A DNA stretch of 64,000 nt from assembly GCA_017569285.1 (NCBI GenBank), contig CP069419.1:2666001-2730000 (forward strand), in the 5' to 3' direction. This stretch comes from Clostridiales bacterium (GTDB lineage: Bacteria > Bacillota > Clostridia > Christensenellales > Aristaeellaceae). The position numbers and the translations under genes are program-made. Positions 41,474 through 61,970 of the stretch are shown piece by piece (the first letter of the stretch is position 1; the number at the start of each line of letters is the position of its first letter). The notes under the pieces were generated by a model that saw only the letters and a list, made by a program, of their open reading frames with translations, ran no database searches and was not told where the DNA came from.

Positions 41474-41539
41474 GCCCACATATGGCCGCCCGGTTGTCCG
41501 GTGCGTGCCGGACGAATGCATGGATGGAGGTAATTGCCC

Positions 41540-44133: not shown

Positions 44134-45654
44134 TTATTCGCCGAGGAAGGCCTTCAGCTGGGCGTTGGCTTCGTCCACGACCTTCTGCATTCCGGCACCT
44201 TCCAGCTTGGAGAGGAGCTCGGGCAGCTTTTCGTCCACGTCCACCGCGCCGGTGCACAGGCTCAGGGAGTAGGCTTCCTTGATGTTGGCGATCTGGGCGA
44301 TTTCGGTTTCAACGGGCTTGCTGTCGAAGGTGAAGCCGTAGATCGGAAGCTTCTTGGAGCCGGCATAGAACTCAGCGAACCGCTGCTGGAAGTCAGCGCC
44401 CTGACCCTTCTGCGGGGGCAGCAGGGTGACGTTGCCCAGGCCGTTGGTCCAGGGGGAGTAGGTGGAACGGGCATCGGTGAATTCAACTTCACCCGCGTCG
44501 TTCAGGTTGTAGTGGATGCCTTCCACGCCGTAGTTCATCAGGGTCATGACATAGGGATCGGTGTTCAGCAGGTTCAGGAACTTCATGGCCTCGACCGGAT
44601 GCTCGCTGTTGGCGGAAATCGCCATCATGGCGCCCTGGACGGAGGTGTTGTCGATGTAGGGGGCATCGGTGGTCATCACGTAGGCGACCTGGATGCCGCG
44701 CTGCTCGGAAGTGGTGAACTCATAGCCGTAGAGGGAAACTTCGGAAGAGATCAGGTAGTTCGCGGTGTTCTGGGCATTGCGCCAGGTATCGGTCGCGGTT
44801 TCGCCGATGGCGATGGCGGGATCGATGTAGCCGGCCAGGTAGTATTCACGCATCTGCTTGGCGAACTTCTCGAACTCGGGGGTCGCGAACTTGTTGAAGA
44901 TCACGTTGCCGTAGGCACCGGGGGTGGAAACGTCTTCGGTGTTCATGTAGTAGCTCAGCAGGCCGTTGGCATCGCCGGTGACGATGGGCGTTCCGGTGAC
45001 ATAGCGTTCCACGACAGCGCCTTCAAAGATGAAGGGGTAGAAGACCTTTCCGTCTTTTTCCTCGCCGGCCTTCACGGTCGCGAAGATGTCATTCCAGCCG
45101 TAGAAGCCGGCCTTTTCCACGTCTTCCAGGGTGTAGCCGTATTTCTCGAGCAGGGTGACGTTGACGTCCCAGGTGTTCATGGTGGCAAAATCCTTGAAGC
45201 CGGGAACCGCGTAGATGCCCTTTTCTCCATCGGGACCTTCGGTCAAGGCGCCTTCAAACAGCAGCTCGGGCAGGACGGTCTTCAGCTCCGCACCGTACTC
45301 GGCGAGCAGGTCGTCTTCCGGGTCATCCAGGCGGACGTAGGCGCCCTTCTTGGCGTAGGGAGCATACTCGTTCGCGGTCCAGGAGCAGGTGAACAGGATG
45401 TCGTATTCGGAACTTCCGGAGTTCACCGCGTTCTGGGCGGTCTGGTCAAAGTTGCCCCAGGTTCCCCAGGTGGGAACGATGGAGACGCCGATCTTTTCGT
45501 TCAGGTAAGCATTCAGCTTTTCGAGGACGGCGGCGTCATCAGTGACGTTGTTGCCTTCCAGCAGGATGGTGATTTCCACGGGGGAATCCGCCATTGCCGG
45601 GACCAGGGAGAGCAGCATCATGGCTGCCAGGATGAGGGCCAGGAACTTCTTCAT
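44134..45654 (-). CDS. ABC sugar importer, substrate-binding protein (LplA-like)
   Basis: A 506-residue exported solute-binding protein. The signal peptide ends AMADSPVE and lacks a lipobox cysteine, which is odd for a monoderm binding protein. The mature part has the cluster-1 extracellular sugar-binding fold (TWGTWGNFDQTAQNAVNSG, DILFTCSWTANEYAPYAKKG, MAISANSEHPVEAMKFLNLL) and an LplA-type C-terminal domain (IYGFTFDSKPVETEIAQIANI; DUF3502-like). The ATG at 45654 has TTGGAGG 7 bases upstream; in-frame codons further upstream are not signal-like. It is the third gene of a minus-strand operon after two permeases. The substrate is likely an oligosaccharide, with cellobiose or chito-oligomers suggested by the flanking phosphorylases. 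Confidence 0.88.
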   Translation of the reverse strand: MKKFLALILAAMMLLSLVPAMADSPVEITILLEGNNVTDDAAVLEKLNAYLNEKIGVSIVPTWGTWGNFDQTAQNAVNSGSSEYDILFTCSWTANEYAPYAKKGAYVRLDDPEDDLLAEYGAELKTVLPELLFEGALTEGPDGEKGIYAVPGFKDFATMNTWDVNVTLLEKYGYTLEDVEKAGFYGWNDIFATVKAGEEKDGKVFYPFIFEGAVVERYVTGTPIVTGDANGLLSYYMNTEDVSTPGAYGNVIFNKFATPEFEKFAKQMREYYLAGYIDPAIAIGETATDTWRNAQNTANYLISSEVSLYGYEFTTSEQRGIQVAYVMTTDAPYIDNTSVQGAMMAISANSEHPVEAMKFLNLLNTDPYVMTLMNYGVEGIHYNLNDAGEVEFTDARSTYSPWTNGLGNVTLLPPQKGQGADFQQRFAEFYAGSKKLPIYGFTFDSKPVETEIAQIANIKEAYSLSLCTGAVDVDEKLPELLSKLEGAGMQKVVDEANAQLKAFLGE

Positions 45655-45824
45655 AACAGTACCTCCAAATAAGATTTTGTATTTGCAAGCAGCGGCAGGA
45701 CCACCGCTGTTCTTACCGGGGATTAATCGCAACCTCAATCGGCGCAACTCCGCACTGCGGAGATTGCTTGTTTCGGTTGAATTCAGAACCGATGAAATAT
45801 CCGCCACAGGCGGTCATCGGTTCT

Positions 45825-46754
45825 TCATCCCTTGACCGATCCTATCGTCAGTCCGGCCACCACATAGCGCTGGAAGAAGGGGTAGGCGCAGGCGATGGGC
45901 AGGACGATGAACACGACGACGGCCATCCGCATGGTCTGGCTCGGGAGCGCCGCGATGGCGGACGCGCCGGAGGCGCCGATCATCGAGGAGTTGCGGGCCA
46001 GGAACTCGGCGTTGCGCTGCATCTCCATCAGCAGGTACTGCAGGGGATACAGGTCGCGCTTGGTGACATACAGCAGGCACAGGAACCATTCGTTCCAGTA
46101 GGCCAGGGCGGTCAGCAGGGCCACGGTGGCGATGCCGGGTTTGACGATCGGCAGGATGATGCGCACCAGGGTGGTGTATTCGCCGCTTCCGTCGATTGTG
46201 GACGCTTCGATCAGGTCGAAGGGAACCGACGTCTGGAAGAAGGTGCGCATGATGATGATATTGAACGGGCTCACCAGCATCGGGACGATCAGGGCCGCGT
46301 AGTTGTTGCCCATGCCCAGCAGGTTGCGGCAGATGATGTAGGTGGGGATCAGGCCGCCGCCGAAGATCATCGTGAAGAAGCTGAGGAAGCTGAAGAACCC
46401 GCGGAGCTTGTAGTCCTTCCGGAACAGGGGGTAGGCGTACAGGACGCACATGCTGACGCTGAGCACCGTACCGACGATCGTGATAAAGAAGCTGTTGAAA
46501 TAGCTGCGCCAGAGCGCGTCACCCAGGTTGAACACCTGTTTGTAGGCATCCAGGGACAGGGCGGCGGGAGTGAAGGAATAACCGATCTGCCGGATGCTGT
46601 CCTCCGAGGAGAAGGAAATGATGATGACGAAGATGAACGGGATGATACAGGCCAGGGCAAAAACGCCCAGGATCAGGTGAAAAACGCTTTCGGTTTTCCG
46701 GCTGATCATGTTCAGGCGGAAGGCGCCGGCTTTTTTCTTCACTGCGGTCGTCAT
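45825..46754 (-). CDS. ABC sugar importer, permease (LplC/MalG-like)
   Basis: A 309-residue permease with six helices. The cytoplasmic coupling motif is clear (EASTIDGSGEYTTLVRIILP, the EAA loop). It pairs with the permease at 46784. No ATPase gene is present; such importers usually share an MsmX-type ATPase encoded elsewhere. About 170 untranslated bases lie between it and the binding-protein gene (45655-45824), where I see only a small inverted repeat near 45740-45790. Confidence 0.92.
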   Translation of the reverse strand: MTTAVKKKAGAFRLNMISRKTESVFHLILGVFALACIIPFIFVIIISFSSEDSIRQIGYSFTPAALSLDAYKQVFNLGDALWRSYFNSFFITIVGTVLSVSMCVLYAYPLFRKDYKLRGFFSFLSFFTMIFGGGLIPTYIICRNLLGMGNNYAALIVPMLVSPFNIIIMRTFFQTSVPFDLIEASTIDGSGEYTTLVRIILPIVKPGIATVALLTALAYWNEWFLCLLYVTKRDLYPLQYLLMEMQRNAEFLARNSSMIGASGASAIAALPSQTMRMAVVVFIVLPIACAYPFFQRYVVAGLTIGSVKG

Positions 46755-46783
46755 GACGTTTCCTCCTTCCTTTATTACAGTGT

Positions 46784-47761
46784 TTAAAACAAGCTGCTAT
46801 CCGAATCCAGTTTCCGGACAATCCCGTTGGCGGCCATGATGCATACGAAGCCGACCAGGTTCTGCAGGAAGCCGGCCGCGGTACTCATGCCGACGTTGCC
46901 GGTGGAAGTGTAGGCGCGGTATACGTAGGTATCGACCACCTGGGTGACCGGGAACAGCGGCGCGGAGTTCATTGGGACGGACCAGAAGAGGCCGAAGTCT
47001 GCGTTGAAGATCTTGCCGACGTTCATGATCAGCAGGATGATGATCATGGGCTTCAGGTGGGGCAGGGTGACATGGATCACCTGCTGCCACTTGGTGGCAC
47101 CGTCCACGGAGGCCGCCTCATACTGCGTGCGGTCGATGCCCGTGATCGCGCTGAGGTAGAGCACGGTGGAATAACCGGTGTTCTTCCAGATGGAGCAGAT
47201 GGTGAGGATGTACGGCCAGTAGCCCGGTGAGTTGTACCAGTCGACCACGTCGCCCCCGGCGGCCCGCTGCGCGCGGACGATCATGCCGTTGGTCGGATCC
47301 AGGAAGGCGAACAGGAAGTAGGAAACAACGACCCAGCTGAGGAAGTAGGGGAAGAACATCATGGTCTGGTAGGTCTTGGCCAGGAATTTCCGCGTCAGCT
47401 CGCTCATCATGATGGCGAAGGCGACGGAGATCAGCAGGCCCAGTACGATCCACAGGGCGTTGTAGCCGATGGTGTTGCGGATCATGGTGACGCTCTCGCT
47501 GGTGAAAAGGAACTGGAAGTTTTTCAGCCCGACCCAGGGACTCTTCAGCAGGTTCATCGGGAACGGGATCTTCCGCGTCGGCAGCTTGTAGTCCAGGAAG
47601 GACATCATGATGCCGAACATGGGAAGGTACCGGATCAGCAGCAGCCAGATGGTGGCCGGCAGCATCATCGTGGTGAGCCAGAATGTTTTCTTCCGGGAAG
47701 CGGAAGGGGTGCGGCGCATGCGGAGATCGGCCTGGCGGGCTTTTGTTTGCAGCGTGGACAT
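46784..47761 (-). CDS. ABC sugar importer, permease (LplB/MalF-like)
   Basis: A 325-residue permease. A positively charged N-terminal tail is followed by six helices and the EAA loop (YEAASVDGATKWQQVIHVTLP). It is the first gene of the minus-strand importer operon, with GGAGAGGAGG before the ATG. It is divergent from nagA across a 211-base control region in which I could not find a convincing promoter for this side. Confidence 0.92.
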   Translation of the reverse strand: MSTLQTKARQADLRMRRTPSASRKKTFWLTTMMLPATIWLLLIRYLPMFGIMMSFLDYKLPTRKIPFPMNLLKSPWVGLKNFQFLFTSESVTMIRNTIGYNALWIVLGLLISVAFAIMMSELTRKFLAKTYQTMMFFPYFLSWVVVSYFLFAFLDPTNGMIVRAQRAAGGDVVDWYNSPGYWPYILTICSIWKNTGYSTVLYLSAITGIDRTQYEAASVDGATKWQQVIHVTLPHLKPMIIILLIMNVGKIFNADFGLFWSVPMNSAPLFPVTQVVDTYVYRAYTSTGNVGMSTAAGFLQNLVGFVCIMAANGIVRKLDSDSSLF

Positions 47762-47972
47762 GGAACCATTTGCCTCCTCTCCGTAGTGCCTGGTTTTGCT
47801 TTGTCCTATCTGGTACCTGAATTCTACAAAAAAGACAGGAGCCGTGTCATTATCTCCGTTTGTGAATTCTTGCCTCCGGTTGTTGTGTTGGCAAAACCGG
47901 ACAATTGGGTATTGAAAACCGCCGGAATCTGCGATACCCTAACATCAGAAAACAGAACAGGAGTGTGGGAAT
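47762..47972. promoter_or_regulatory. Divergent control region between the sugar importer and nagA
   Basis: A 211-base intergenic region with a weak plus-strand match (TTGAAA 47912-47917, a 17-base spacer, TACCCT 47935-47940) for nagA. It is a sensible place for an operator of the AraC-type regulator at 56034, but no clear repeat stands out by eye. Confidence 0.35.
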
Positions 47973-49103
47973 ATGCTGATCCGGAATGCCCGGCTTTATA
48001 TAGGAAATGATTTCGAAAACGGTTCGGTCCGCCTGCGGGACGGAAGGATCGCGGAGGTCGGGAAGGACCTGCGCGCGGAAGCCGGGGAACGTGAGACTGA
48101 CCTGGGCGGGGACTTCCTGCTGCCGGGATTTGTGGACGTGCATATCCACGCGTTCGGCGGAAGGGACACCATGGAGGGCGAGGACGCGGTGCGGGCGATG
48201 AGCCGGGAACTGCGGAAGCTGGGTGTCGCGGCATTCTGCCCGACCACCATGAGCGCGGGCCCGGAGGACACAAAGAACGCCGTCGCGGGCATCCGCGCGG
48301 TGATGGAGAAGCCGGAGAAGGACGGAGCCCTGGTCCTCGGCGCGCACATGGAGGCGCCTTTCCTGCAGGAGAGCAAGGCCGGCGCCCAGCGGAAGGAATT
48401 CTTCCTCAATCCTTCATTTGAAAGACTGGAAGAAATGACCGGGGGAGATCCCGGAATCGTGAGGCTGATCACCATGGCCCCGGAAAAGGACGGCAGCGAG
48501 GCATTCATCCGCCGCGCAGCGGAGGCCGGGATCCATGTGTCCATCGGCCATACGGCGGCCACGGCGGAGGAGACCCACCGGGCGGCGGAATGGGGCGCGG
48601 ACCATGTGACCCATACGTTCAACGCGCAGACGCCGCTGACGCACCGGGCGCCGGGAGTCCCCGGCGCGGCGCTGACGGATGACCGGCTGTACTGCGAAAT
48701 GATCTGCGACGGAATCCACCTCCACCGGGACACCGTGCGCCTGCTGGCAAAGTGCAAGGGACCGGAGCGGGCGGTGGCAATCACCGACGCGATGGAAGCT
48801 GCCGGCCTGCCGGACGGGGAGTACGCCCTGGGCGGGCAGAAGGTGTTCGTGAAGGACGGGGCCGCCCGGCTGGCGGACGGAACGCTGGCCGGATCCGTGC
48901 TGACGATGCCGCAGGCGCTGGAGAATCTGATCCACCGGTTCGGTATCCGCCCGGAGGACGCGTGCGCCATGTGCACCTGCACCCCCGCGGATTCCATCGG
49001 GGAGAAGCGGACCGGCCGGATCACGGCGGGCGCGCCGGCGGTGCTGACCCGCTGGAGCCCGGACTGGCACATGGCCGGGGTGATCACCGGAGACGCGGAA
49101 TAA
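47973..49103 (+). CDS. nagA: N-acetylglucosamine-6-phosphate deacetylase
   Basis: A 376-residue amidohydrolase that converts GlcNAc-6-phosphate to glucosamine-6-phosphate and acetate. The metal/catalytic set is present: His57 and His59 (VDVHIHAFGG), Glu127 (HMEAPF, where most homologues have HLEGPF), His193 (IGHTAAT), His214 (THTFNAQ) and the catalytic Asp272 (ITDAMEAAGLPDG). It stands just upstream of chitobiose phosphorylase and a sugar-phosphate mutase, completing a GlcNAc catabolic route. nagB is not in the window. Confidence 0.94.
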   Translation: MLIRNARLYIGNDFENGSVRLRDGRIAEVGKDLRAEAGERETDLGGDFLLPGFVDVHIHAFGGRDTMEGEDAVRAMSRELRKLGVAAFCPTTMSAGPEDTKNAVAGIRAVMEKPEKDGALVLGAHMEAPFLQESKAGAQRKEFFLNPSFERLEEMTGGDPGIVRLITMAPEKDGSEAFIRRAAEAGIHVSIGHTAATAEETHRAAEWGADHVTHTFNAQTPLTHRAPGVPGAALTDDRLYCEMICDGIHLHRDTVRLLAKCKGPERAVAITDAMEAAGLPDGEYALGGQKVFVKDGAARLADGTLAGSVLTMPQALENLIHRFGIRPEDACAMCTCTPADSIGEKRTGRITAGAPAVLTRWSPDWHMAGVITGDAE

Positions 49104-49145
49104 ACAAGGACGCCAAAGAGAGACAATAAAGCACAACCCCATTCC

Positions 49146-49173
49146 TTGAACCGGATTTTGCGGAAGGTATAAT
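49146..49173 (+). promoter_or_regulatory. Promoter of the chbP operon
   Basis: TTGAAC (49146-49151), a 16-base spacer and a perfect TATAAT (49168-49173), 46 bases before chbP. The chbP-mutase-sensor set can therefore be expressed apart from nagA. Confidence 0.65.
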
Positions 49174-49219
49174 AAAATCAGGAAAACCTGAATTTTATAT
49201 ACAGAACGGGGATGTGAAT

Positions 49220-51625
49220 ATGCGCTACGGTTTTTTTGACGATCAGGCGCGGGAATACGTGATTGACCGCCTGGATACCCCCCAGTCCATGACCAACTAC
49301 CTGGGCACCCAGCGGATGGGCACCGTGATCTCCCACAATGCGGGCGGGTACTCCTGGCTGGACAGCCCCCAGCACCACCGGATTACGCGGTTCCGGCCGA
49401 ACGGCGTGCCGATGGACTGGCCGGGGCACTACGTCTACCTGCGGGATGACGAGAGCGGAAAGTACTGGTCGCTGAGCTGGCAGCCGACAGGGCTTCCGGA
49501 GGGCGAAGCGAAGTATGAGGCCCGCCACGGGCTGAGCTATTCCCGCTTCCGGTGCGAGGCGCAGGAAATCGCCGGGGAGCAGGTGCTGTTTATTCCCCGG
49601 GAGGACGGGGACGACGATCCCGTGGAGATCTTTGACGTGAAGGTCCGGAACCTGTCGGACCGGCCCCGGAAGATCAGCGTTTACGGATATGTGGAATTCT
49701 CTTTCCATGAAATCGATATGGACAACCAGAACTTCCAGATGAGCCTGTATGCCGCCGGCTCCCACTACGAGGACGGCGCGGCGCTGTGCGAGCTGCACTA
49801 TGAACAGGACGCCTGGCAGTTTTTTGCGGGCAATTTTGAGCCGGACAGCTTTGACGGTGTCCGGGAAGCCTTTATCGGGCCGTACCGCACGGAGCGGAAT
49901 CCGCTGGGCGTGGAAGCTGGAAAACTGACCGGCTCCACGGAACTGGGCGGCAACCCCTGCGGCGCGCTGCAGAAGAAGCTGGAGCTTGCGCCCGGGGAGG
50001 AAGCGCGCGTGCTCTTCTACCTGGGAACCGGCCGGGGAAAGGCGGTCCGGCAGGCGAGGGAGAAGTATGACGAAGCCGGGACTGACAGGGCGTTCGCGGA
50101 GCTGAAGCAGTTCTGGGACGAAAAACTGGGACAGCTGCAGGTCTCCACACCCCATGAAAACATGAACCGGTCCCTGAACATCTGGAACCTGTACCAGAGC
50201 GAGATCAACGTGCTGTTTTCCCGCTTCTCCTCCTTTATCGAGGTGGGCGGGCGGACCGGGCTGGGCTACCGGGATACGGCGCAGGACGCCATGTGCATTC
50301 CGCACGCCGAACCGGACATGTGCATGAAGCGGATCCGCCAGCTGCTGCACGGGCAGATGCGCATGGGCTACGGCCTGCACCTGTTCGATCCCGCGGTGCT
50401 GGAGCAGGGAGAGGAGGACGGGTTCAAATCCCCGACGGTGATTCCCGAAACGGATAAGAAGAGCATGTTGCACGGGATCAAGGACGCCTGCGCGGACGAC
50501 GCGCTGTGGCTGATTCCCGCCATTGTGGAGAATGTGCGGGAAAGCGGCGACGCATCCTTTCTGGATGAGGTAATCCCCTTCGCGGATGAAGGCGAGGGCA
50601 CCGTATGGGAGCATATGAAGGCTGCGCTGGACTTCTCCTACAGCCAGATCGGCGCCCACGGCATCACCAAAGGCCTGCGGGCGGACTGGAACGACTGCCT
50701 GAACCTGGGCGGCGGCGAGAGCGCGATGGTCGCGTTCCTGCTGGTGTGGGCCACGAACCACTTCCTCGATGCGGCAAAGGCGCTGGGCCGGACGGAGGAC
50801 GAAAAACGGTACACGGAGCTGAAGGCGGGCATGGAGGAAACCTGCCGGAAGACGCTGTGGAACGGGGAGTGGTTCCTGCGCGGGTTCACGGCGGACGGCC
50901 GGGAAATCGGTTCCCGGGAGGCCGCAGAGGGCAAGGTCCACATGGAGAGCAATACCTGGGCGGTGGTGAGCGGAACGGCCACGCAGGAGCAGGGCCTGTC
51001 CTGCATGGACGCGGTGGACGAGTGGCTGTACACGCCCTGGGGCCTGATGCTGAACGCGCCGTCCTTTGTGACGCTGGACGACAGCATCGGGTTTGTGACC
51101 CGGGTATATCCCGGCGTGAAGGAAAACGGGGCGATCTTCAGCCATCCGAATCCCTGGGCCTGGGTGGCGGAATGCATGCTGGGCCGCGGAAGCCGTGCCA
51201 TGAAGTTCTACGACGCGCTGCTGCCGGAAAACCAGAACGACAAGATGGAAATCCGCCAGGCGGAGCCCTACAGTTACTGCCAGTTCATCATGGGACGGGA
51301 CCACACGGCCCACGGCCGGGCCCGGCATCCCTTCATGACCGGCTCCTCCGGCTGGGCATACTACGCGGCGACCCGCTATATGCTCGGTATCCGCCCCGGC
51401 TTCGACACGCTGACGGTGGATCCGTGCATTCCCGCGGACTGGGACGGCTTTGAGGCCGTGCGCCGGTGGCGGGGCGCGGAATACCGCATCACCGTGCGGA
51501 ACCCCTGGCATGTGGAAAAGGGCGTGCGGTCCATCCGGGTGGACGGCGTGGAAGTGGCGGATATTCCTGCCTTCGAAAGCGGCACCCATCAGGTGGAGAT
51601 TGAGATGGGAGGCGCGGCCGTATGA
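49220..51625 (+). CDS. chbP: N,N'-diacetylchitobiose phosphorylase, GH94
   Basis: An 801-residue enzyme, the same length as Vibrio ChBP. It uses phosphate to split (GlcNAc)2 into GlcNAc-1-phosphate and GlcNAc. The features that separate this branch from cellobiose phosphorylase are present ([66 protein letters not shown]). The general acid is Asp492, the same number as in the characterised enzyme. There is no signal peptide. It overlaps the mutase gene by 4 bases. nagA upstream and the mutase downstream support the GlcNAc substrate. Confidence 0.92.
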   Translation: MRYGFFDDQAREYVIDRLDTPQSMTNYLGTQRMGTVISHNAGGYSWLDSPQHHRITRFRPNGVPMDWPGHYVYLRDDESGKYWSLSWQPTGLPEGEAKYEARHGLSYSRFRCEAQEIAGEQVLFIPREDGDDDPVEIFDVKVRNLSDRPRKISVYGYVEFSFHEIDMDNQNFQMSLYAAGSHYEDGAALCELHYEQDAWQFFAGNFEPDSFDGVREAFIGPYRTERNPLGVEAGKLTGSTELGGNPCGALQKKLELAPGEEARVLFYLGTGRGKAVRQAREKYDEAGTDRAFAELKQFWDEKLGQLQVSTPHENMNRSLNIWNLYQSEINVLFSRFSSFIEVGGRTGLGYRDTAQDAMCIPHAEPDMCMKRIRQLLHGQMRMGYGLHLFDPAVLEQGEEDGFKSPTVIPETDKKSMLHGIKDACADDALWLIPAIVENVRESGDASFLDEVIPFADEGEGTVWEHMKAALDFSYSQIGAHGITKGLRADWNDCLNLGGGESAMVAFLLVWATNHFLDAAKALGRTEDEKRYTELKAGMEETCRKTLWNGEWFLRGFTADGREIGSREAAEGKVHMESNTWAVVSGTATQEQGLSCMDAVDEWLYTPWGLMLNAPSFVTLDDSIGFVTRVYPGVKENGAIFSHPNPWAWVAECMLGRGSRAMKFYDALLPENQNDKMEIRQAEPYSYCQFIMGRDHTAHGRARHPFMTGSSGWAYYAATRYMLGIRPGFDTLTVDPCIPADWDGFEAVRRWRGAEYRITVRNPWHVEKGVRSIRVDGVEVADIPAFESGTHQVEIEMGGAAV

Positions 51626-53043
51626 TTCAGTTCGGTACAGGCGGCTGGCGGGCCGTGATCGGCGACGGGTTTACCCGGGACAATATCCGGCGGATCGCGG
51701 CGGCACTCGCCCGGCGGATGGTGCGCGAAGGCTGCGCGGGGCAGGGAATCTGCGCCGGGTATGACCGGCGCTTCCTGAGCCGCGAGGCGCTGATCTGGTT
51801 CTGCGAGGTGCTGGCGGGGGAAGGCGTGAAGGTGCGCTTCGTCAACATGTCCTGCCCGACACCGCTGGTGATGTTCACCGTGAAGCGGATGGGCCTGCCC
51901 TACGGCGCCATGGTGACGGCCAGCCACAACCCGGCCATCTGGAACGGCATCAAGCTGTTTACCGAAGGCGGCCGGGACGCGGCGGAAAACTATACGCGGG
52001 AGATTCAGGAGGAGGCCAACGCCCTGGACGAGGCCGGGATCCGGTCCGTTCCCTTTGAGCAGGCAAAGGCGGAAGGAAAGATTGAACTTGTGGACCCGCG
52101 GGACGAATACCTGGATTCCATCCTGCGGCAGGTGGACACGGACGCCATCCGGAAACGGCGGCTCCGCATCGTGCTGGACCCGATGTTCGGCGTGAGCCTG
52201 ACCGGGCTGCAGACCATCCTGTACACGGCCCGGTGCGACGTGGACGTGATCAACGACCGGCATGACGCCTTTTTCGGACGCCACCTGCCGGCCCCGAACC
52301 CGGAGACGCTGGTGGACCTGCAGTACGCGGTGAAGGAACACCGGGCGGACGTGGGCATCGCCACGGACGGCGACGCGGACCGGCTCGGCATCATCGACGA
52401 GAACGGCCGGTATGTGACCGCCAACGAAACACTGGCGCTCATGTACTATTATCTGTTAGAATATAAGGGATGGCGCGGGGCGGTGGCCCGCAACATCGCC
52501 ACCACCCACCTGCTGGACCGGATCGCGGAAGCCTACGGGCAGGTGTGCGCGGAGGTGCCGGTGGGCTTCAAGTACATCTCGGCCGGCATGGACGAGCATG
52601 ATGCCCTGATCGGCGGGGAATCCTCCGGCGGCCTGACCGTCCGCGGGCATATCTCCGGCAAGGACGGCCTGTACGCGGCCAGCCTGCTGGTGGAGATGAT
52701 CAGCGTGACCGGGAAGAAGCTGAGCGAGCTGGTGAACGACCTGTTCGCCCGCTTCGGGGAGCTGCATACGGCGGAGTATGACTGGCCGCTGACGCAGGAG
52801 CTGAAGGACCGCATCTTCCGGATGATCATGGAGGAGAAACGGGTTCCGGACCTGGGCCGGAAGGTTGAAAAAATCAGCTATATGGACGGATGCAAGGTTT
52901 ACCTGGACGGCGGATGGGTGATCGTCCGCTTCTCCGGAACGGAACCGAGGGTCCGGATTTTCGCGGAGGCGGAAACGGAAAAGGCGGCGCGGAACCTGGT
53001 GGAGATCATGGCGCGCCATACCGGACTGCCCTGGACGGAATAA
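51622..53043 (+). CDS. Phosphohexomutase, probable GlcNAc-1-P to GlcNAc-6-P mutase
   Basis: A 473-residue alpha-D-phosphohexomutase. The active-site phosphoserine is Ser101 (TASHNP), the metal loop is DGDADR (249-254), the sugar-binding loop is GGESSGG and the phosphate-binding loop is RFSGTEPRVRIF. The family cannot be split by eye into glucose-, mannose- or GlcNAc-specific types. Translational coupling to chbP implies that it turns the GlcNAc-1-phosphate product into GlcNAc-6-phosphate for NagA. It differs from the anabolic GlmM, whose usual neighbours are absent. Confidence 0.88.
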   Translation: MIQFGTGGWRAVIGDGFTRDNIRRIAAALARRMVREGCAGQGICAGYDRRFLSREALIWFCEVLAGEGVKVRFVNMSCPTPLVMFTVKRMGLPYGAMVTASHNPAIWNGIKLFTEGGRDAAENYTREIQEEANALDEAGIRSVPFEQAKAEGKIELVDPRDEYLDSILRQVDTDAIRKRRLRIVLDPMFGVSLTGLQTILYTARCDVDVINDRHDAFFGRHLPAPNPETLVDLQYAVKEHRADVGIATDGDADRLGIIDENGRYVTANETLALMYYYLLEYKGWRGAVARNIATTHLLDRIAEAYGQVCAEVPVGFKYISAGMDEHDALIGGESSGGLTVRGHISGKDGLYAASLLVEMISVTGKKLSELVNDLFARFGELHTAEYDWPLTQELKDRIFRMIMEEKRVPDLGRKVEKISYMDGCKVYLDGGWVIVRFSGTEPRVRIFAEAETEKAARNLVEIMARHTGLPWTE

Positions 53044-53073
53044 GAAACAAACCGGGAAGGAACGAAGGATACC

Positions 53074-54822
53074 ATGGCAAAGGCAAAGGAAGGGAAGAAA
53101 GCATCCGGCGGATGGTTCCGGCGGCTGAATTCCCTGCGGAACCAGGTGGGCGCCATCGTGGTGCTCAGCTACCTGATTCCGGCACTGCTGCTGGGAACAT
53201 TCACCGGCACCATCCTGCTGCGCGGGCTGGAGGAGAAAACGCGTTCGGCGGTTTCCTCCAGCGCCGAGCATGCCTTTACCATGATCCAGCAGAACGTGAC
53301 CCGGGCGGTGGAGCTGGCCCGGGGCGCCACCTATGATGGGGAACTGACCTCCGCCTGGCAGAGATGGCAGGACGGCAGCGCCGCCCATACGGAGTTCCTC
53401 CAGATGTGCCGCCGGTACCTCGAGCGGAAATACAGCCGGGAGCCCCTGTTCAATTTTGCCGGGTTCTTCCCGGCGGGCCGGCCGGACCTGCTGAGCTATA
53501 TCCGCAGCAGCGAGAGCCATACCCAGGAATACCTGAACAACCTCCTGGCGGAGGTGGCGCGGGCCGGGGAAACGCTGGATACCCGCAGCCGGTTTATCAG
53601 CTTCGGGAACCGGATGTTCCTGATCCGGAACCTGCTGGACCTGAAGATGGAACGCTACGGAATGCTGATCCTGGGGGTGAATCCGGACCGGATGTTCGAG
53701 CCCCTGAACGGCCTGCAGGAATCCTGGCAGGCGGAGGTGTCCGTGCGCCTGGATGACTACGCGCGCGGGGAGCCGGTCACGGACTGGAATACCCTCCGGG
53801 ACGGGCTGACGGATGACGCGAAGGCAGGGAGGCTGCTGTACACGCAGCTGTCCGGCGGGGAGGAAAACATCGCGGACCTGATGCTCTCGGTGGACCGGCG
53901 GCAGCAGTTCAGCGACATGTATGCCTTCCGGCGGCTGACGATCGGCATGTTCCTGGCGCTGATTCCCTTCCTGATCCTGATCGCGGTCTACCTGCACCGG
54001 CGGATTACGAAGCCGATCAAGATCCTGTCGGACGCGAGCCGGCGGATCGAGGAGGGGGAGCTGGGCGTGACGGTTCCCATGCACGGCAGCGATGAGCTGG
54101 GCCGGCTGGGTGAAACCTTCTCCCACATGTCCCTGCGGCTGAAGGAGCAGATTGACAAGACCTACAAGGAAGAAATTGAACTGAAGAACGCACAGATCCT
54201 GGCCCTCCAGAGCCGGATCAACCCGCATTTCATGAACAACGCGCTGGAGGCGATCAACTGGGAGGCCCGCATGGAGGGATCGGAGACGATCTCCTCGATG
54301 GTCGGATCCCTTTCCATCCTGATGAACGCCACCATGGGCCGGAAGGAACGGCGCCTGGTGACGCTGCGGGAAGAGATGGAGGTTGCCGATGCGTATATCT
54401 ATTTCGTCCAGCAGCGCTTCGGGCCGGAGCTGACCATCCGGCAGGAGATTGACGAGCCGGCGTATGACGGCATCCTTCCGCTGCTGACGGTGCAGCCCCT
54501 GCTGGAGAACGCCGTGGAGCACGGGATCGCCCCGGCGGGCGGCGGCGAGATCAACATCAAGTGCACCCGGGGCGGGGAATGCCTGCACCTGGGCATCATC
54601 AATACCGGAAAGACCGCGGACCCGGCCGACCGGGCGCGGATCGAGGCCGCGCTGCAGGGAAGGGCAGAGGAGCACCACCTGGGCCTGGCCAATATCGTGA
54701 ACCGGCTCCACCTGATCTACGGGGAGCAGGTGCAGATCCGCGTGGATACGGACACGCCCGGGGAAACGGGCGTTTACCTGGATATTCCGCAGGACGTGAC
54801 CGTAAGGGAGGGAAGGGAATGA
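53074..54822 (+). CDS. YesM-type sensor histidine kinase
   Basis: 582 residues. Two membrane helices (about 25-47 and 288-312) enclose a ~240-residue extracellular sensor domain (dCache/YesM-like). Then come HAMP (about 313-365) and a His_kinase/HATPase module with His385 in SRINPHFMNNALEAINWE and the ATP-binding LLTVQPLLENAVEHGI. The stop overlaps the start of a binding-protein gene, which overlaps or abuts a YesN-type regulator. It probably senses a sugar through that binding protein. Confidence 0.92.
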   Translation: MAKAKEGKKASGGWFRRLNSLRNQVGAIVVLSYLIPALLLGTFTGTILLRGLEEKTRSAVSSSAEHAFTMIQQNVTRAVELARGATYDGELTSAWQRWQDGSAAHTEFLQMCRRYLERKYSREPLFNFAGFFPAGRPDLLSYIRSSESHTQEYLNNLLAEVARAGETLDTRSRFISFGNRMFLIRNLLDLKMERYGMLILGVNPDRMFEPLNGLQESWQAEVSVRLDDYARGEPVTDWNTLRDGLTDDAKAGRLLYTQLSGGEENIADLMLSVDRRQQFSDMYAFRRLTIGMFLALIPFLILIAVYLHRRITKPIKILSDASRRIEEGELGVTVPMHGSDELGRLGETFSHMSLRLKEQIDKTYKEEIELKNAQILALQSRINPHFMNNALEAINWEARMEGSETISSMVGSLSILMNATMGRKERRLVTLREEMEVADAYIYFVQQRFGPELTIRQEIDEPAYDGILPLLTVQPLLENAVEHGIAPAGGGEINIKCTRGGECLHLGIINTGKTADPADRARIEAALQGRAEEHHLGLANIVNRLHLIYGEQVQIRVDTDTPGETGVYLDIPQDVTVREGRE

Positions 54823-56024
54823 ACCTGAAGAAATGCCTGGCCGCGCTGCTTACGGCGGTGCTGCTGCTTTCCGCGGCGGGCGCCGCGGCCCAGGGGATTA
54901 CCCTGCACACGATCAGCTGCTTTGCCGGCCCGGATGCCTCCGATGAGATTTACGTGGATATCCTCCGCCGCTATGAGGCGGAAACCGGCAATACGGTCCT
55001 GGACTCCTCGTCCGCCAGCGATGAGGCATGGAAAACCTCCGTGCTGAACGAATTCGCGGTGGGCAATGAGCCGGACGTGCTCTTCTTCTTCGCCGCCGGG
55101 GCGGACTCCCGGCCGATCCTTTCCCGGGTGGTCCCGCTGGAGGAGATTAACCGGGAATACCCGGAGATCCGCCTGCCGGAAACGGAAGCCCTGCGGGAAG
55201 AGGACGGCTCGGTCTACGCGGTTCCGGTGCGCGGCTACTGGGAAGGGCTGTATGTGCATACGGACCTTTTTGAGCAGTACGGCGCGCCGCTGCCCCGGGA
55301 CTGGGATTCCCTGCTGGAAGCCATCCGGATTTTCCGGGAGAATGAGATCATCCCGATCGCCATCTCCCTGTCGGATATCCCGCACTACGTGGCGGAGCTC
55401 GCCATCCTCGCGTGCGCGGAACAGGAGGACCAGCAGGCCCGGCCGAAGACCCTGGAGGAAGTGCCGGCATCCTGGGTGGAGGCCATGCGGGTGATCCGGG
55501 AGCTGGCGGAGGCAGGCGCCTTCGCGGACAACGCCTGGGCGACCTATGACAGCGCAGCCACGGACGTGTTCCTGACCAAGAAGGCCGCCATGCGGCTGGA
55601 CGGCAGCTGGTTTGCGACGTCCATCTCGCCGGCCTGGATGGATACGATGGAAGTGCTTCCCATGCCCCGCCGGAACGGGGACGGCGTATCCGACTGCTAT
55701 ATCGGCGGCGTTTCCATGGGATTTTACCTGACCCGCCGGGCATGGAATTCCACGCGGCGGGATGCCGCGGTGCAGCTGCTTTCCGTGCTGACGGCGCCGG
55801 AAAATGTCGCCCGGCTGGGGGATACGACCCTGACCGGCCACCTGCAGGCGTCCGCGGAGGAGATGCAGGAGGGAAGGACGATGCTCAGCCCGCTGCAGGA
55901 CTCCATGAGCAAGAACGCCCGGGAGGTCTGGCTGCTGGAATGCATTCCGGCGGTGGCGGACGGCAGCATGACGGCGGAGCAGTGCTGGGAGAAAGTGATG
56001 GCGCTGGCTCCCTTCGGAAAGTAA
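54819..56024 (+). CDS. Extracellular solute-binding protein within a sensor operon
   Basis: A 401-residue exported cluster-1 binding protein. The signal peptide ends GAAAQG with no lipobox cysteine. The mature fold is typical (RYEAETGNTVLDSSSASDEAWKT, GNEPDVLFFFAAGADSRPI, VYAVPVRGYWEGLYVHTDLF, FLTKKAAMRLDGSWFA). It has no permease partners next to it. Instead it is locked by a 4-base overlap behind the kinase and lies 9 bases before the regulator, so it looks like a dedicated ligand-presenting partner of the sensor (a three-component system) rather than an importer subunit. That role is inferred. Confidence 0.85.
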   Translation: MNLKKCLAALLTAVLLLSAAGAAAQGITLHTISCFAGPDASDEIYVDILRRYEAETGNTVLDSSSASDEAWKTSVLNEFAVGNEPDVLFFFAAGADSRPILSRVVPLEEINREYPEIRLPETEALREEDGSVYAVPVRGYWEGLYVHTDLFEQYGAPLPRDWDSLLEAIRIFRENEIIPIAISLSDIPHYVAELAILACAEQEDQQARPKTLEEVPASWVEAMRVIRELAEAGAFADNAWATYDSAATDVFLTKKAAMRLDGSWFATSISPAWMDTMEVLPMPRRNGDGVSDCYIGGVSMGFYLTRRAWNSTRRDAAVQLLSVLTAPENVARLGDTTLTGHLQASAEEMQEGRTMLSPLQDSMSKNAREVWLLECIPAVADGSMTAEQCWEKVMALAPFGK

Positions 56025-56033
56025 GGTGAAGGA

Positions 56034-56783
56034 ATGTACCGCGTAGTTCTGGTGGATGACGAACGCCTGATTATCCGGGGCCTTTCCAGCGTGGTGCCGT
56101 GGAAGGAGCTCGGGTGCGAGGTATGCGGCACCGCCTATGACGGGAAAACCGGGCTGGACCTGATCCGCAGCCTGCGGCCGGATATGGTGATTACCGATAT
56201 CCGGATGCCGAACATGGACGGACTGACCATGCTCGCGGCGCTGCACAGCGAATATCCGGATATCCAGACCACGGTGCTGACCGCGTACCGGGACTTCGAG
56301 TATGCCCGGCAGGCCATCACCCTGGGCGTCTGCCGGTACCTGCTGAAGCCCAGCGACCTGGAGGAGCTGAAGGAAACCATCCGCCTGATGGCGTCCCGGC
56401 TGGACGCCCTGCCGGTCCGGAAGGAAGAGGGACCGGAGGAGGAAACTGTCCAGGCGGCCGGGAACCACCTGGTGCGGGCGGCACTGGCCTATATGAAGGA
56501 GCACTGCGCGGAGCAGCACCTGTCCCTGAATGAGGTGGCGGACCATGTGTACGTCAGCCAGTGGCATTTGTCCAAGCTGCTGAACCGGGAAACGGGGCAG
56601 AGCTTTTTCGACCTGCTGGGCTCGCTGCGGATTGCCCGGGCCAAGGAACTGCTGGGGAGTTCCCAGATGCGGGTCCATGAAATCGCGGAGGCCACGGGCT
56701 TCTCCGACGTGGCCCATTTTTCCCGCAGCTTCAAGCGGATTGCGGGCTGTACGCCCGGGGAATACCGCAACCAGCGGGACTGA
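56034..56783 (+). CDS. YesN-type response regulator, AraC-family DNA-binding
   Basis: 249 residues. The receiver domain has phospho-acceptor Asp55 (MVITDIRMPNMDGL), and the C-terminal AraC/XylS domain has two helix-turn-helix units (LSLNEVADHVYVSQWHLSKLL and VHEIAEATGFSDVAHFSRSF, about 150-246). It is the cognate regulator of the kinase at 53074. Likely targets are its own operon, nagA and possibly the ABC importer, because carbohydrate YesN-type regulators normally act on linked genes. No terminator is evident after it. Confidence 0.92.
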   Translation: MYRVVLVDDERLIIRGLSSVVPWKELGCEVCGTAYDGKTGLDLIRSLRPDMVITDIRMPNMDGLTMLAALHSEYPDIQTTVLTAYRDFEYARQAITLGVCRYLLKPSDLEELKETIRLMASRLDALPVRKEEGPEEETVQAAGNHLVRAALAYMKEHCAEQHLSLNEVADHVYVSQWHLSKLLNRETGQSFFDLLGSLRIARAKELLGSSQMRVHEIAEATGFSDVAHFSRSFKRIAGCTPGEYRNQRD

Positions 56784-59647: not shown

Positions 59648-59721
59648 CGGGGTGTAGCGCAGTCTGGTAGCGCACGTGCTTTGGGAGCATGGGGCCGGGG
59701 GTTCGAATCCCTTCACCCCGA
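59648..59721 (+). tRNA. tRNA-Pro (TGG)
   Basis: Full cloverleaf with acceptor CGGGGTG / CACCCCG, loop TTTGGGA giving anticodon TGG, and the T-arm GTTCGAATC. CCA is not encoded. Confidence 0.95.
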
Positions 59722-59742
59722 CTCGTCAAAAACCCTGTACGT

Positions 59743-59815
59743 GGCTCCGTGGTCAAGAGGCCTAAGACACCGCCCTTTCACGGCGGCTACCCGGGTTCGA
59801 ATCCCGGCGGAGTCA
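59743..59815 (+). tRNA. tRNA-Glu (TTC)
   Basis: Acceptor GGCTCCG / CGGAGTC, anticodon stem CCGCC / GGCGG with loop CTTTCAC (TTC). CCA is not encoded. Confidence 0.95.
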
Positions 59816-59835
59816 CTTTTCTTCCTTTCCGATAT

Positions 59836-59909
59836 GGGCCTTTAGCTCAGTTGGTCAGAGCGGCCGGCTCATAACCGGTTGGTCCGGGGTTCAAGTCCCT
59901 GAAGGCCCA
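59836..59909 (+). tRNA. tRNA with CAT anticodon, probably tRNA-Ile2
   Basis: Acceptor GGGCCTT / AAGGCCC and anticodon loop CTCATAA. CAT can mean Met, initiator Met or Ile2 (lysidine-modified). The C4-G69 and C5-G68 pairs are the ones lysidine synthetase prefers, and the stem resembles Ile2 of other Firmicutes. The lack of the GGG/CCC anticodon stem excludes an initiator. CCA is not encoded. Confidence 0.85.
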
Positions 59910-59921
59910 CAGCCTTTCAAT

Positions 59922-59998
59922 GGCCCGGTAGCTCAGTTGGTTAGAGCGCCAGCCTGTCACGCTGGAGGTCGAGGGTTCGAGCCCCTTCCGGGTCGCCA
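59922..59998 (+). tRNA. tRNA-Asp (GTC)
   Basis: Acceptor GGCCCGG / CCGGGTC, discriminator G, anticodon loop around CTGTCAC (GTC). The 3' CCA is encoded. Confidence 0.95.
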
Positions 59999-60041
59999 CT
60001 TTTCGGGTGAATCCGCTGGACAATGTCGGGAAGAGCTTCGT

Positions 60042-60117
60042 GCTGGCGTAGCTCAATTGGCAGAGCAGCTGATTTGTAATCAGCAGGTTGCGGGTTCGAG
60101 TCCCATCGCCAGCTCCA
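60042..60117 (+). tRNA. tRNA-Thr (TGT)
   Basis: Acceptor GCTGGCG / CGCCAGC, anticodon stem GCTGA / TCAGC with loop TTTGTAA (TGT). The 3' CCA is encoded. Confidence 0.95.
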
Positions 60118-60143
60118 CCCTTTGGGTCAAGAGGGAAACATAT

Positions 60144-60228
<85 letters not shown>

Positions 60229-60234
60229 TCTTCT

Positions 60235-60321
60235 GCGGGAATGGCGGAATTGGCAGACGCGCATGATTCAGGTTCATGTGTACGTACGTACTTGCAGGTT
60301 CAAGTCCTGTTTCCCGCACCA
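60235..60321 (+). tRNA. tRNA-Leu (CAG), host of an integrated element
   Basis: Class II tRNA; acceptor GCGGGAA / TTCCCGC, loop TTCAGGT (CAG), variable arm GTGTACGTACGTAC. The 3' CCA is encoded. Integrase, excisionase and primase genes begin right after it, so its 3' end is the probable attachment site. Confidence 0.95.
60290..60321. other. attL: Putative attachment site in the tRNA-Leu 3' end
   Basis: Tyrosine integrases of this kind commonly use the T-arm to 3' end of a tRNA. The integrase gene ends 141 bases away, pointing at it. The second copy would lie beyond the right edge, so the exact core cannot be defined. Confidence 0.5.
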
Positions 60322-60322
60322 C

Positions 60323-60357
60323 AGAACCCTTGATTTTTCAAGGGTTCTGCTTCTTTT
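60323..60357 (+). terminator. Terminator of the tRNA array
   Basis: Stem AGAACCCTTGA / TCAAGGGTTCT followed by a T-rich tract (CTTCTTTTT). Confidence 0.85.
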
Positions 60358-60376
60358 TGGCGGCCTTCCACCCCAA

Positions 60377-60409
60377 CCCCACCCCAACGGACCTGAAATT
60401 GGGGTGGGG
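60377..60409 (-). repeat. 11-bp inverted repeat beyond the integrase gene
   Basis: CCCCACCCCAA (60377-60387) and TTGGGGTGGGG (60399-60409) are perfect complements around an 11-base spacer. Another CCACCCCAA copy lies at 60368-60376. It is between tRNA-Leu and the integrase stop and lacks a U run. It may be an integrase arm-site cluster or a weak terminator. Confidence 0.7.
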
Positions 60410-60461
60410 CTATACACCATGGGACATGGTTGGGTGAAATTTTCTATTATTGTTCATCGTT

Positions 60462-61595
60462 TTACAACCCGGCGATGAACTTTTCCATGCGGTTCGCGCT
60501 TTCCTTCTGCATGGTAGCGGTGACGTGTGCGTAGCGATCCAGCGTGAATGCCGAGGAGTAATGCCCGGCGTTCTGCTGGATCGTTTTTACGTCATCCCCC
60601 GCCATAATGGAACTTACCACATAAGTGTGTCTCAGATCATGGAAGCGATGGGCGTCGATGCCCGCTGCCACCAGGATCTTGTGAAGAATCTTCCATGCGG
60701 TCGGCTGGGACAGGTGGCTGCCATCCGGATGCGTGAACACCAGGTTGGGGAAGCCGCCATTGTTCCATGCCGGCCCCAGCGCTTTCCGCTGTGCTTCCTG
60801 TTCTTCCTTGTGCTTCTTCAGCACCTGGAAGACCGTAGGAGCGGGAGCGATCGTGCGGGGCTTGCTGTTCTTCGGTGTCGCAAACCGGAAGACTTCGCCT
60901 TTCTTTCTCGGCTGAGCCAGCTGCTTGGTGACCCGAATCAGACCGTTCTCAAAGTCCACAGAATCCCAGGTCAGCCCCAGCAGCTCGCCGGACCGCAATC
61001 CGGTGAAGATTGCGGTCACGATGAGCGCTTCATGCTCGTGGCCTTTCAGAAAGGCCAGCAGCTTGGACAGTTCCGGCGTATCCAGCGGATGAATCTCCGC
61101 TTGTTCGATCCGGGGCAGGATACAGTTGCTGGATGGATTCTTGCTCAGATAGCCGATCCTCACTGCCACATCCAGTGCCTTATGCAGGCAGCCGTGAATG
61201 TTTTTGATGGATTTCGGACTGAGCCCTTCCTCACGTTTTTTATTGTAGAGACGCTGGATCATGGGCGTCCGGAGTGCCGACAGCTTGACGTCTCCGAGCG
61301 CGGGGATAATGTGTACCCGAATCTGCATTTCGTAAGTATCCGCAGTGCCCAGTTTCACATTCCCCAGGTAGTCGCGGTGCCACATGGTCAGCCATTGGCC
61401 GAGGGTCAGGCCGCTGTCCTCTCTGAAATCACCATGGTCGATGGTGACGGAGACTTCGGTCAGCTTCTTCCGGACTTCCACCTGGGTTCTGCCATAGACC
61501 GAATGCCGTTTTCCATCGGCACAGTATCGGGCTTCCCAGCTTCCGTCAGCCCGTTTTCTGATGGTTCCTTCGCCGTTAGCACGCTTTCTTGCCAT
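60462..61595 (-). CDS. int: Tyrosine-type site-specific integrase
   Basis: A 377-residue phage/ICE integrase. It has an N-terminal AP2-like arm-binding domain (about 1-55, NGEGTIRKRADGSWEARY), a SAM-like core-binding domain (about 64-150) and a catalytic domain with Arg201 (GLRSGELLGL), Lys near 242-244, His319 and Arg322 (HDLRHT), His345 and the nucleophile Tyr355 (LDRYAH). It should recombine the element with the tRNA-Leu site. Its start lies 20 bases inside the excisionase-like gene, so the two are coupled. Confidence 0.95.
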   Translation of the reverse strand: MARKRANGEGTIRKRADGSWEARYCADGKRHSVYGRTQVEVRKKLTEVSVTIDHGDFREDSGLTLGQWLTMWHRDYLGNVKLGTADTYEMQIRVHIIPALGDVKLSALRTPMIQRLYNKKREEGLSPKSIKNIHGCLHKALDVAVRIGYLSKNPSSNCILPRIEQAEIHPLDTPELSKLLAFLKGHEHEALIVTAIFTGLRSGELLGLTWDSVDFENGLIRVTKQLAQPRKKGEVFRFATPKNSKPRTIAPAPTVFQVLKKHKEEQEAQRKALGPAWNNGGFPNLVFTHPDGSHLSQPTAWKILHKILVAAGIDAHRFHDLRHTYVVSSIMAGDDVKTIQQNAGHYSSAFTLDRYAHVTATMQKESANRMEKFIAGL

Positions 61596-61902
61596 TCGTA
61601 TCTCCTTCCGACAGCCAGTCCATGAGCGCCTGGCGGGCGATCACAATCTTCTTTCCCACGTGGATGGATGGAATCTCATTGCTGTGAATGAGCTCATACA
61701 TCTTCGGCTTGCTGATCCCGATCAGCTCGGCGGCTTCCCGGACGGACAATGTCATTTTCGTGCCCGGCGATGATTGCTGAGATGTGCTGTTGTCAAGGTG
61801 CTCCGGCTCCCGAGCGGGAGCGCTTTGATTATTCAGAGCGTTGAGCGCTGCCTCAACGACCTGAATAACCTCATCTTTAGTATAAAGCCTGTTTCTCATC
61901 AT
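61576..61902 (-). CDS. Excisionase-like helix-turn-helix protein
   Basis: A 108-residue DNA-binding protein. After a Ser/Pro-rich N-terminal part, residues about 49-95 form a MerR/excisionase-type winged helix (LSVREAAELIGISKPKMYEL, then IPSIHVGKKIVIARQALMDWL). The ATG at 61902 has GAAAGGA 8 bases upstream; an in-frame GTG at 61920 is less well placed. The 20-base overlap with the integrase gene suits an Xis or recombination-directionality role. A general regulator is also possible. Confidence 0.82.
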   Translation of the reverse strand: MMRNRLYTKDEVIQVVEAALNALNNQSAPAREPEHLDNSTSQQSSPGTKMTLSVREAAELIGISKPKMYELIHSNEIPSIHVGKKIVIARQALMDWLSEGDTNGKKAC

Positions 61903-61970
61903 TTCAATATCCTTTCGCACTTTAAAGTGATAAAAAGTTGTAAACTTTCTTCTGTTTGATTGCTCCTGCC

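Follow-up and report, generated by a model that had tools for sequence, protein, structure and literature searches.

A probable chitobiose phosphorolysis unit with its own three-component sensor in a Clostridiales genome

Results

Layout of the locus

The window analysed here is a stretch of 64,000 nucleotides from the genome of a Clostridiales bacterium (G000:C1:2666001-2730000; 3.27 Mb in two contigs, 97.05% complete). Six of its genes, all on the forward strand, encode NagA, the phosphorylase ChbP, a phosphohexomutase, a histidine kinase, a solute-binding protein (SBPb) and a regulator; transporter genes diverge from them (Table 1). We propose that these genes form a unit for the phosphorolysis of N,N'-diacetylchitobiose, (GlcNAc)2 (GlcNAc, N-acetylglucosamine), with a private three-component sensor. 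From the sequence evidence, we place the probability of this reading at about 0.78.

A first-pass annotation of this DNA had listed the six genes, their boundaries, a phosphorylase of 801 residues with Asp492 and nearly continuous spacing, all of which the gene calls reproduce. The chbP and mutase genes overlap by 4 bp, as do those for the kinase and SBPb; 30 bp separate mutase from kinase and 9 bp SBPb from regulator. The exception is the gap of 116 bp between nagA and chbP, which contains an operator and promoter-like sequence. We place the start of chbP at the ATG at 49220, with an alternative GTG possible at 49214. The families found are both GH94 domains, four PGM/PMM domains, HAMP with His_kinase and HATPase, SBP_bac_8/1, and Response_reg with HTH_18. 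To call the locus complete, as had been done, was too strong: nagB and a GlcNAc kinase lie outside it, and the gene unit reaches beyond 47973-56783 to the divergent transporter at 44134-47761.

We compared the locus with 80 relatives whose chbP is 59-98% identical. In 71 of the 77 with enough sequence, a mutase gene follows chbP within 400 nt. Where 7.5 kb or more of downstream sequence is available (60 loci), a kinase is found in 52 and a regulator match in 55. The annotation had proposed looking for just this co-occurrence, and because the order chbP-mutase-kinase-regulator is kept among relatives, it is not a product of chance. Judged by ChbP, the locus is closest to a fragment, L063, from a goat-omasum Clostridia genome (98% identity), and the closest named relatives are mostly ruminant-gut metagenome genomes.

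Table 1. Genes and regulatory features of the proposed unit, in order of position in the window
Feature	Position	Strand	Basis or remark
SBPa, DUF3502-type solute-binding protein of presumed (GlcNAc)2 importer	44134..45654	-	SBP_bac_1, DUF3502
perm2, ATP-binding cassette (ABC) permease, MalG-like	45825..46754	-	BPD_transp_1; beside perm1 and SBPa in relatives
perm1, ABC permease, UgpA/MalF-like	46784..47761	-	BPD_transp_1; operator upstream
Presumed perm1 promoter	47821..47850	-	-35 ATGACA (47850-47845), -10 TAGAAT (47826-47821), 18-nt spacer; 9 nt from operator
Operator 1, for perm1	47860..47882	-	Sense CAACCGGAGGCAAGAATTCACAA; matrix score 31.0, best in window
nagA, GlcNAc-6-phosphate deacetylase	47973..49103	+	TIGR00221 above cut-off
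Operator 2, for chbP	49114..49136	+	Sense CAAAGAGAGACAATAAAGCACAA; matrix score 28.0, second best
Presumed chbP promoter	49146..49173	+	-35 TTGAAC (49146-49151), -10 TATAAT (49168-49173); 9 nt from operator
chbP, GH94 N,N'-diacetylchitobiose phosphorylase, 801 aa, Asp492, Val629 (= Val631 of V. proteolyticus)	49220..51625	+	Sequence matches, alignment
Alpha-D-phosphohexomutase, presumed GlcNAc-1-phosphate mutase	51622..53043	+	Domains; 78% paralogue behind nahK
YesM-type sensor histidine kinase	53074..54822	+	His_kinase, HAMP; kinase domain like GanS
SBPb, solute-binding protein, presumed chitobiose sensor subunit	54819..56024	+	Sequence and fold searches place NagB2/NagB1 among its closest solved structures
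Short YesN-type response regulator, receiver and AraC helix-turn-helix, 249 aa	56034..56783	+	Domains

The phosphorylase

Chitobiose phosphorylase converts (GlcNAc)2 and phosphate to GlcNAc-1-phosphate (GlcNAc-1-P) and GlcNAc, as established for Vibrio. ChbP is, by sequence, an enzyme of this kind. Searched against solved structures with phmmer, it scored 1038 bits with ChBP of V. proteolyticus (1v7v), 523 bits with 8bou and at most 469 bits with cellobiose phosphorylases. Both GH94 domains, catalytic and supersandwich, are present. The motif ADWND spans residues 488-492 (numbered from the ATG), so the assignment of Asp492, the general acid, is exact.

In an alignment of 80 ChbP proteins (the window and 79 relatives, the fragment L063 being excluded for its length), the residue matching Val631 is valine in every one. 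The same position in 21 other GH94 proteins holds Tyr in 13 and Phe in eight, and Tyr in the GH94 protein encoded nearby at 41534-43984; valine occurs in none of these 22. The Asp492 equivalent is invariant across all aligned GH94 proteins. The Arg343 equivalent is Arg in all 80 ChbP, yet also in eight of the 21 others. The valine is called crucial to chitobiose specificity in PMC10318527, which credits Hidaka 2004. For the neighbouring GH94 protein, about 5 kb away, the scores are reversed: 1324 bits to a cellobiose phosphorylase (3qde) and 464 to ChBP. Cellobiose specificity of ChbP is rejected on the bit scores, the valine position and these reversed scores, which support the original naming of the enzyme as a chitobiose phosphorylase.

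Some further GH94 genes deserve mention. The cellobiose phosphorylase gene at 41534-43984 is convergent with the importer genes and adjoins the locus also in L032, L033, L035, L037, L039, L050 and L056. The molecule name of PDB entry 8bou (N,N'-diacetylchitobiose phosphorylase) conflicts with its own paper, PMC10318527. A ChbP match of 61% identity (OY725836.1:107111-109468) lies on a 154-kb Subdoligranulum record of a plasmid collection. Finally, two loci (L190:5938-8481 and L191:8735-11281) encode divergent GH94-like proteins of 847 and 848 aa that are 51% alike, have a best solved relative at 70 bits and keep DWND and TG-S. Each gene adjoins a 40-42% relative of the window mutase, and one of the two loci also lies beside genes for a PIG-L deacetylase, NagB and a ROK repressor. 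These proteins are possibly an undescribed group of GlcNAc-1-P-releasing phosphorylases.

The mutase and GlcNAc metabolism

The mutase carries alpha-D-phosphohexomutase domains I-IV. A paralogue, 78% identical, is found at 2320763 and overlaps the end of nahK by 4 bp; this upstream gene scored 320 bits to the N-acetylhexosamine 1-kinase 4wh1. A second mutase copy (at least 78% identical) occurs in four genomes, with nahK directly upstream in all four. With chbP before the one and nahK before the other, the mutase and its paralogue each stand behind a gene expected to yield GlcNAc-1-P. The nahK-linked paralogue therefore supports GlcNAc-1-P as the mutase substrate, and it gives a fate for the GlcNAc that ChbP would release. 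By gene context, then, the locus enzyme is likely a GlcNAc-1-P mutase, the role first proposed for it. The order LacI-nahK-mutase was noted at L121:7691-10176 of the same genome.

We surveyed 396 genomes of the order for ChbP (at least 60% identity) and the mutase (expectation value 1e-100). ChbP was found in 16 (plus one fragment, G331), the mutase in 21 and both in 14; the two ChbP genomes lacking the mutase, G006 and G214, have chbP near contig ends. The mutase as an exclusive partner of ChbP was ruled out, since it accompanies ChbP in 14 of 16 genomes but is found in others too. NahK is present in 14 of the 16 ChbP genomes and in 134 of the 380 others, a difference that partly reflects kinship.

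NagA scored 289.5 bits with TIGR00221 (cut-off 225.65) and is the sole nagA match in the genome. Its gene lies between perm1 and chbP, and between the two operators, in the window and in L032, L033, L034 and L050, and at the opposite end of the locus in L067 and L074; overall, eight of 80 loci have a nagA match. The genome's nagB is distant from the locus, beside glmM. Four matches to ROK proteins are candidate GlcNAc kinases, and a search for the BcrAD_BadFG family gave two weak matches only, both under the cut-off.

The genome has one secreted GH18 gene and one GH20 gene. The secreted GH18 protein (L123:7829-9058) has ChiW as its nearest solved chitinase (257 bits). The usual GH18 signature is DxxDxDxE; in this protein the first Asp is replaced by Gly, and the final D, D and E are retained.

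The putative sensor genes

The SBPb gene lies between those of the kinase and the regulator, with no permease gene between. In the SBPb model (mean predicted local distance difference test score, pLDDT, 91.8), NagB2 and NagB1 follow the top fold match 4g68, and their chains make up six of the top nine matches; sequence searches yield the same neighbours. NagB1 and NagB2 bind (GlcNAc)2 and (GlcNAc)3, as described for nagB1 in PMC8233162. The kinase model (mean pLDDT 80.4, predicted template-modelling score 0.52) shows two long helices flanking an alpha/beta fold, which presumably lies outside the cell. Its best local fold match is the kinase domain of GanS (template-modelling score 0.77 by target length); the top-ranked row, 9a5d, was uninformative (root-mean-square deviation 29.5). 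GanS belongs to the GanPST system of Geobacillus stearothermophilus, which resembles the locus in this respect and differs in its sugars, galactan. The regulator joins a Response_reg receiver to HTH_18, so that its description as AraC-type holds for the DNA-binding part and misses that it is a response regulator.

A binding protein, a class I kinase and a YesN/AraC regulator in one operon, together with a separate importer that has its own binding protein, are the marks of a CuaDSR-like system, and all are present. Since the SBPb gene is flanked by those for kinase and regulator, with no permease genes, and its product is similar to NagB1 and NagB2, the three proteins most likely form a three-component sensor like CuaDSR. 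The first-pass annotation had listed the binding protein but not seen this role; it had also overlooked the transporter and the operator, and what becomes of the second GlcNAc.

A missing lipobox was considered as a mark of sensor-only SBPb proteins and rejected, as proteins with and without permeases are alike in this respect. A simple lipobox pattern was found in seven of 56 SBPb and three of 31 SBPa sequences, several with N-termini from uncertain start codons. By this pattern, most SBPa and SBPb of many relatives have no lipobox, and their signal ends AxA-like, which is unusual for binding proteins if there is no outer membrane.

Two operators at one locus

The operator block was first seen by aligning 29 divergent perm1/chbP (or perm1/nagA) regions. 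It is 23 bp long, with a core in gene sense of CAA-N4-AGACAA-N-AAA-NN-ACAA, in which three CAA triplets lie 10 bp apart. A matrix trained on 51 sites from relatives, with the window left out, placed its two best scores at the sites in Table 1; the next best in the window was 6.0, and the best of each of 10 simulated windows ranged from 4.3 to 14.9. In the whole genome, the exact pattern has two matches only, both at the locus. A wide regulon was considered and, for this genome, rejected: with up to two mismatches the pattern occurs at 41 places (two with one mismatch) vs 78 for the reversed control. Further, a matrix scan found no strong site near the nahK-mutase, nagB-glmM, GH18, second GH94 or ROK genes (highest score 9.6). 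The operator is private to the locus, in keeping with the dedicated sensor proposed at the outset.

The sites recur in relatives. Across 13 genomes, seven of seven exact matches lie at chbP loci, and the reversed control pattern gave four matches. A site scoring at least 7 lies within 200 nt of chbP, in the same orientation, in 62 of 77 cases, and shuffled upstream regions, in a slightly different frame, reach this score in nine of 1540. For every one of the 35 usable perm1 genes of relatives, a correctly oriented operator lies no farther than 200 nt away (lowest score 15.4), and exactly 9 nt after it a -35/-10-like pair is found in 32 of the 35 vs 10 of 1750 shuffles. The importer genes keep the operator even where they do not diverge from chbP (L070, L072, L087, L095 and L109). 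We infer that the regulator binds both operators.

A probable exchange of importers

The best solved relatives of SBPa are uncharacterised solute-binding proteins. No importer ATPase is among the locus genes, and no search was aimed at one. In 20 relatives, two other permease genes separate SBPb from the regulator, and in all 20 the perm1/SBPa importer is absent from the stretch examined, although it may lie elsewhere in those genomes. Of 31 relatives that lack such permeases and have enough DNA, 30 have the importer, the exception being L075 (Fisher 2.7e-13). This count needs at least 1800 bases; L063, L071, L074, L105 (no such permeases, little upstream DNA) and L095 were left out. On a tree of ChbP, the two traits need at least four and at least three changes, and only three independent pairs can be drawn, which agree in most pairings (sign test p 0.25, not significant). 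An exchange of transporters is likely, resting on few events.

At the far side of the locus, 59648-61920 holds seven consecutive tRNA genes followed by opposite-strand genes for proteins of 377 and 114 aa. We take the former to read like a phage-type integrase and the latter like an excisionase, perhaps of an element inserted at the tRNA genes.

Discussion

The route we propose begins outside the cell, where SBPb would bind (GlcNAc)2 and signal through the kinase to the response regulator. The regulator would then activate two divergent units, perm1-perm2-SBPa and chbP-mutase-kinase-SBPb-regulator, through one operator each, 9 nt upstream of the -35 element; the sites and their spacing are observed, and binding is the presumed step. 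With an ATPase encoded elsewhere, (GlcNAc)2 would be imported and split by ChbP and phosphate into GlcNAc-1-P and GlcNAc. The mutase would convert GlcNAc-1-P to GlcNAc-6-phosphate, which NagA and the distant NagB would carry to fructose-6-phosphate. For free GlcNAc, the kinase could be a ROK protein or NahK, which would return it to the mutase route. The phosphorylase-mutase route costs one ATP less per disaccharide than hydrolysis and two kinase steps.

Several observations weigh against this reading. The best match of SBPb, in sequence and in fold, is 4g68, a xylan-use binding protein. The mutase falls below every NCBIfam cut-off, and its relatives occur in seven of the 380 genomes without a ChbP of at least 60% identity, that is, in seven of the 21 mutase genomes. 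The window is itself one of the 29 rows in the alignment that first revealed the operator, and an exact operator match is missing in seven ChbP genomes of the 13, whence the pattern must be called strict. Moreover, the co-occurrence of operator and regulator is imperfect: among 58 loci, 47 have both, three neither, six the regulator only and two the operator only (p 0.023, kinship ignored).

Could SBPb instead be an ordinary transport protein, serving SBPa's permeases or distant ones, while the kinase senses the sugar alone? Two permeases of its own follow SBPb in the 20 relatives described above, and its ancestor was therefore probably a transport protein; the kinase model has an extracytoplasmic fold of its own; and CuaSR alone still perceives cellobiose (PMC10384115). 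Against this, the window and 31 relatives keep SBPb between kinase and regulator with no permeases next to it and have another importer with its own binding protein nearby, an arrangement reported as well for CuaDSR (PMC10384115) and beside nagB1 (PMC8233162). We consider the transport role unlikely. It is quite unlikely that the substrate is some other GlcNAc-beta-1,4 disaccharide, such as one derived from peptidoglycan or the N-glycan core, and not (GlcNAc)2 from chitin. In its favour, active sites of the ChBP type hold GlcNAc on the non-reducing side, the source of the sugar is unreadable from sequence, and a single GH18 gene was found in the genome. However, the compared active-site residues of ChbP are all as in the Vibrio enzyme, SBPb is close to proteins that bind (GlcNAc)2 and (GlcNAc)3, and the GH18 protein is, by its nearest solved relative ChiW, a secreted chitinase.

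The view of the mutase as a phosphoglucomutase or phosphoglucosamine mutase of general function, merely housed in the operon, draws on its best curated matches, which are PGM/PMM models and a GlmM model from archaea (below cut-off), and on its relatives in the seven genomes without a ChbP of at least 60% identity. We regard this as improbable, given that at another place the genome has a distinct glmM above the cut-off of its model (535 bits; cut-off 447.55), next to nagB, that the paralogue lies behind nahK, that the chbP-mutase pair is so widely kept (71 of 77 relatives), and that each of two divergent mutase relatives has a GH94-like gene next to it, in one case with nagB alongside. Scarcely credible is an ordinary cellobiose phosphorylase operon wrongly named. 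Automatic annotation often gives the chitobiose name to GH94 proteins just 36-39% alike, and 8bou, with Tyr653, bears that name while PMC10318527 presents it as a mixed-linkage-glucan enzyme; but the bit scores and valine of ChbP, with a true cellobiose phosphorylase next door, speak otherwise.

The transporter genes raise a further possibility, which we hold tentatively and at slightly less than even odds. SBPb may once have been the binding protein of an ABC transporter for chitobiose that lost its permeases, and may now act as a sensor only; transport would have passed to an unrelated DUF3502-type importer, which came under the same regulator by gaining the operator. This exchange may have happened more than once. 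As part of this picture, all GlcNAc may enter metabolism by way of GlcNAc-1-P, because NahK returns free GlcNAc to the same mutase step.

Parts of the locus have published counterparts. The first-pass annotation took the coupled mutase to be little described, but in the (GlcNAc)2 operon of Vibrio the phosphorylase VC0612 already stands beside the GlcNAc-1-P mutase VC0611 (PMC5209532), and the pairing of phosphorylase and mutase was likewise inferred for Chitinispirillum and for an acidobacterium (PMC4814513, PMC6252331). As proposed for the locus, a binding protein in Vibrio (CBP, in CBP/ChiS control) signals to a two-component system (PMC8233162, PMC10384115). That one protein serves both transport and signalling (PMC10384115), whereas at the locus there are two binding proteins, and a YesMN-type pair with its private operator. 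In Ruminiclostridium cellulolyticum, CuaDSR and cuaABC-cbpA resemble the locus in having a second binding protein, a kinase and a YesN/AraC regulator together with an ABC importer and a GH94 phosphorylase, which the former three control in that species. As described in PMC10384115, they differ in that the sugar is cellobiose, not the presumed chitobiose; CuaR has 538 aa vs 249; CuaD is a lipoprotein and SBPb lacks a lipobox; and the cua operons are set apart from any mutase or nagA. A further counterpart is nagB1 of Paenibacillus sp. FPU-7, which adjoins kinase and regulator genes and whose product binds (GlcNAc)2 and (GlcNAc)3; a GlcNAcase gene (named nagA) is nearby, and the available text of the report mentions no phosphorylase (PMC8233162). 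A signalling role for nagB1 is proposed there, with target genes still to be found.

Published precedents thus exist for the coupled mutase (Vibrio) and for a chitobiose-binding protein encoded next to a two-component system (nagB1 of Paenibacillus). What is new is how these are combined, together with the operator and the probable transporter exchange. Neither these new parts nor such a Clostridia locus were found in the literature searched, which comprised open-licence papers only, so that this is weak evidence of novelty.

The locus offers a testable regulon, with two operators, two promoters and one regulator, for the phosphorolytic use of chitobiose outside Vibrio, in lineages that are frequent in ruminant guts. 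It also gives a concrete answer, for a related arrangement, to the question of what a nagB1-type sensor controls. Further, if permeases were replaced while the binding protein stayed with its kinase, the locus would show how sensor-only binding proteins originate.

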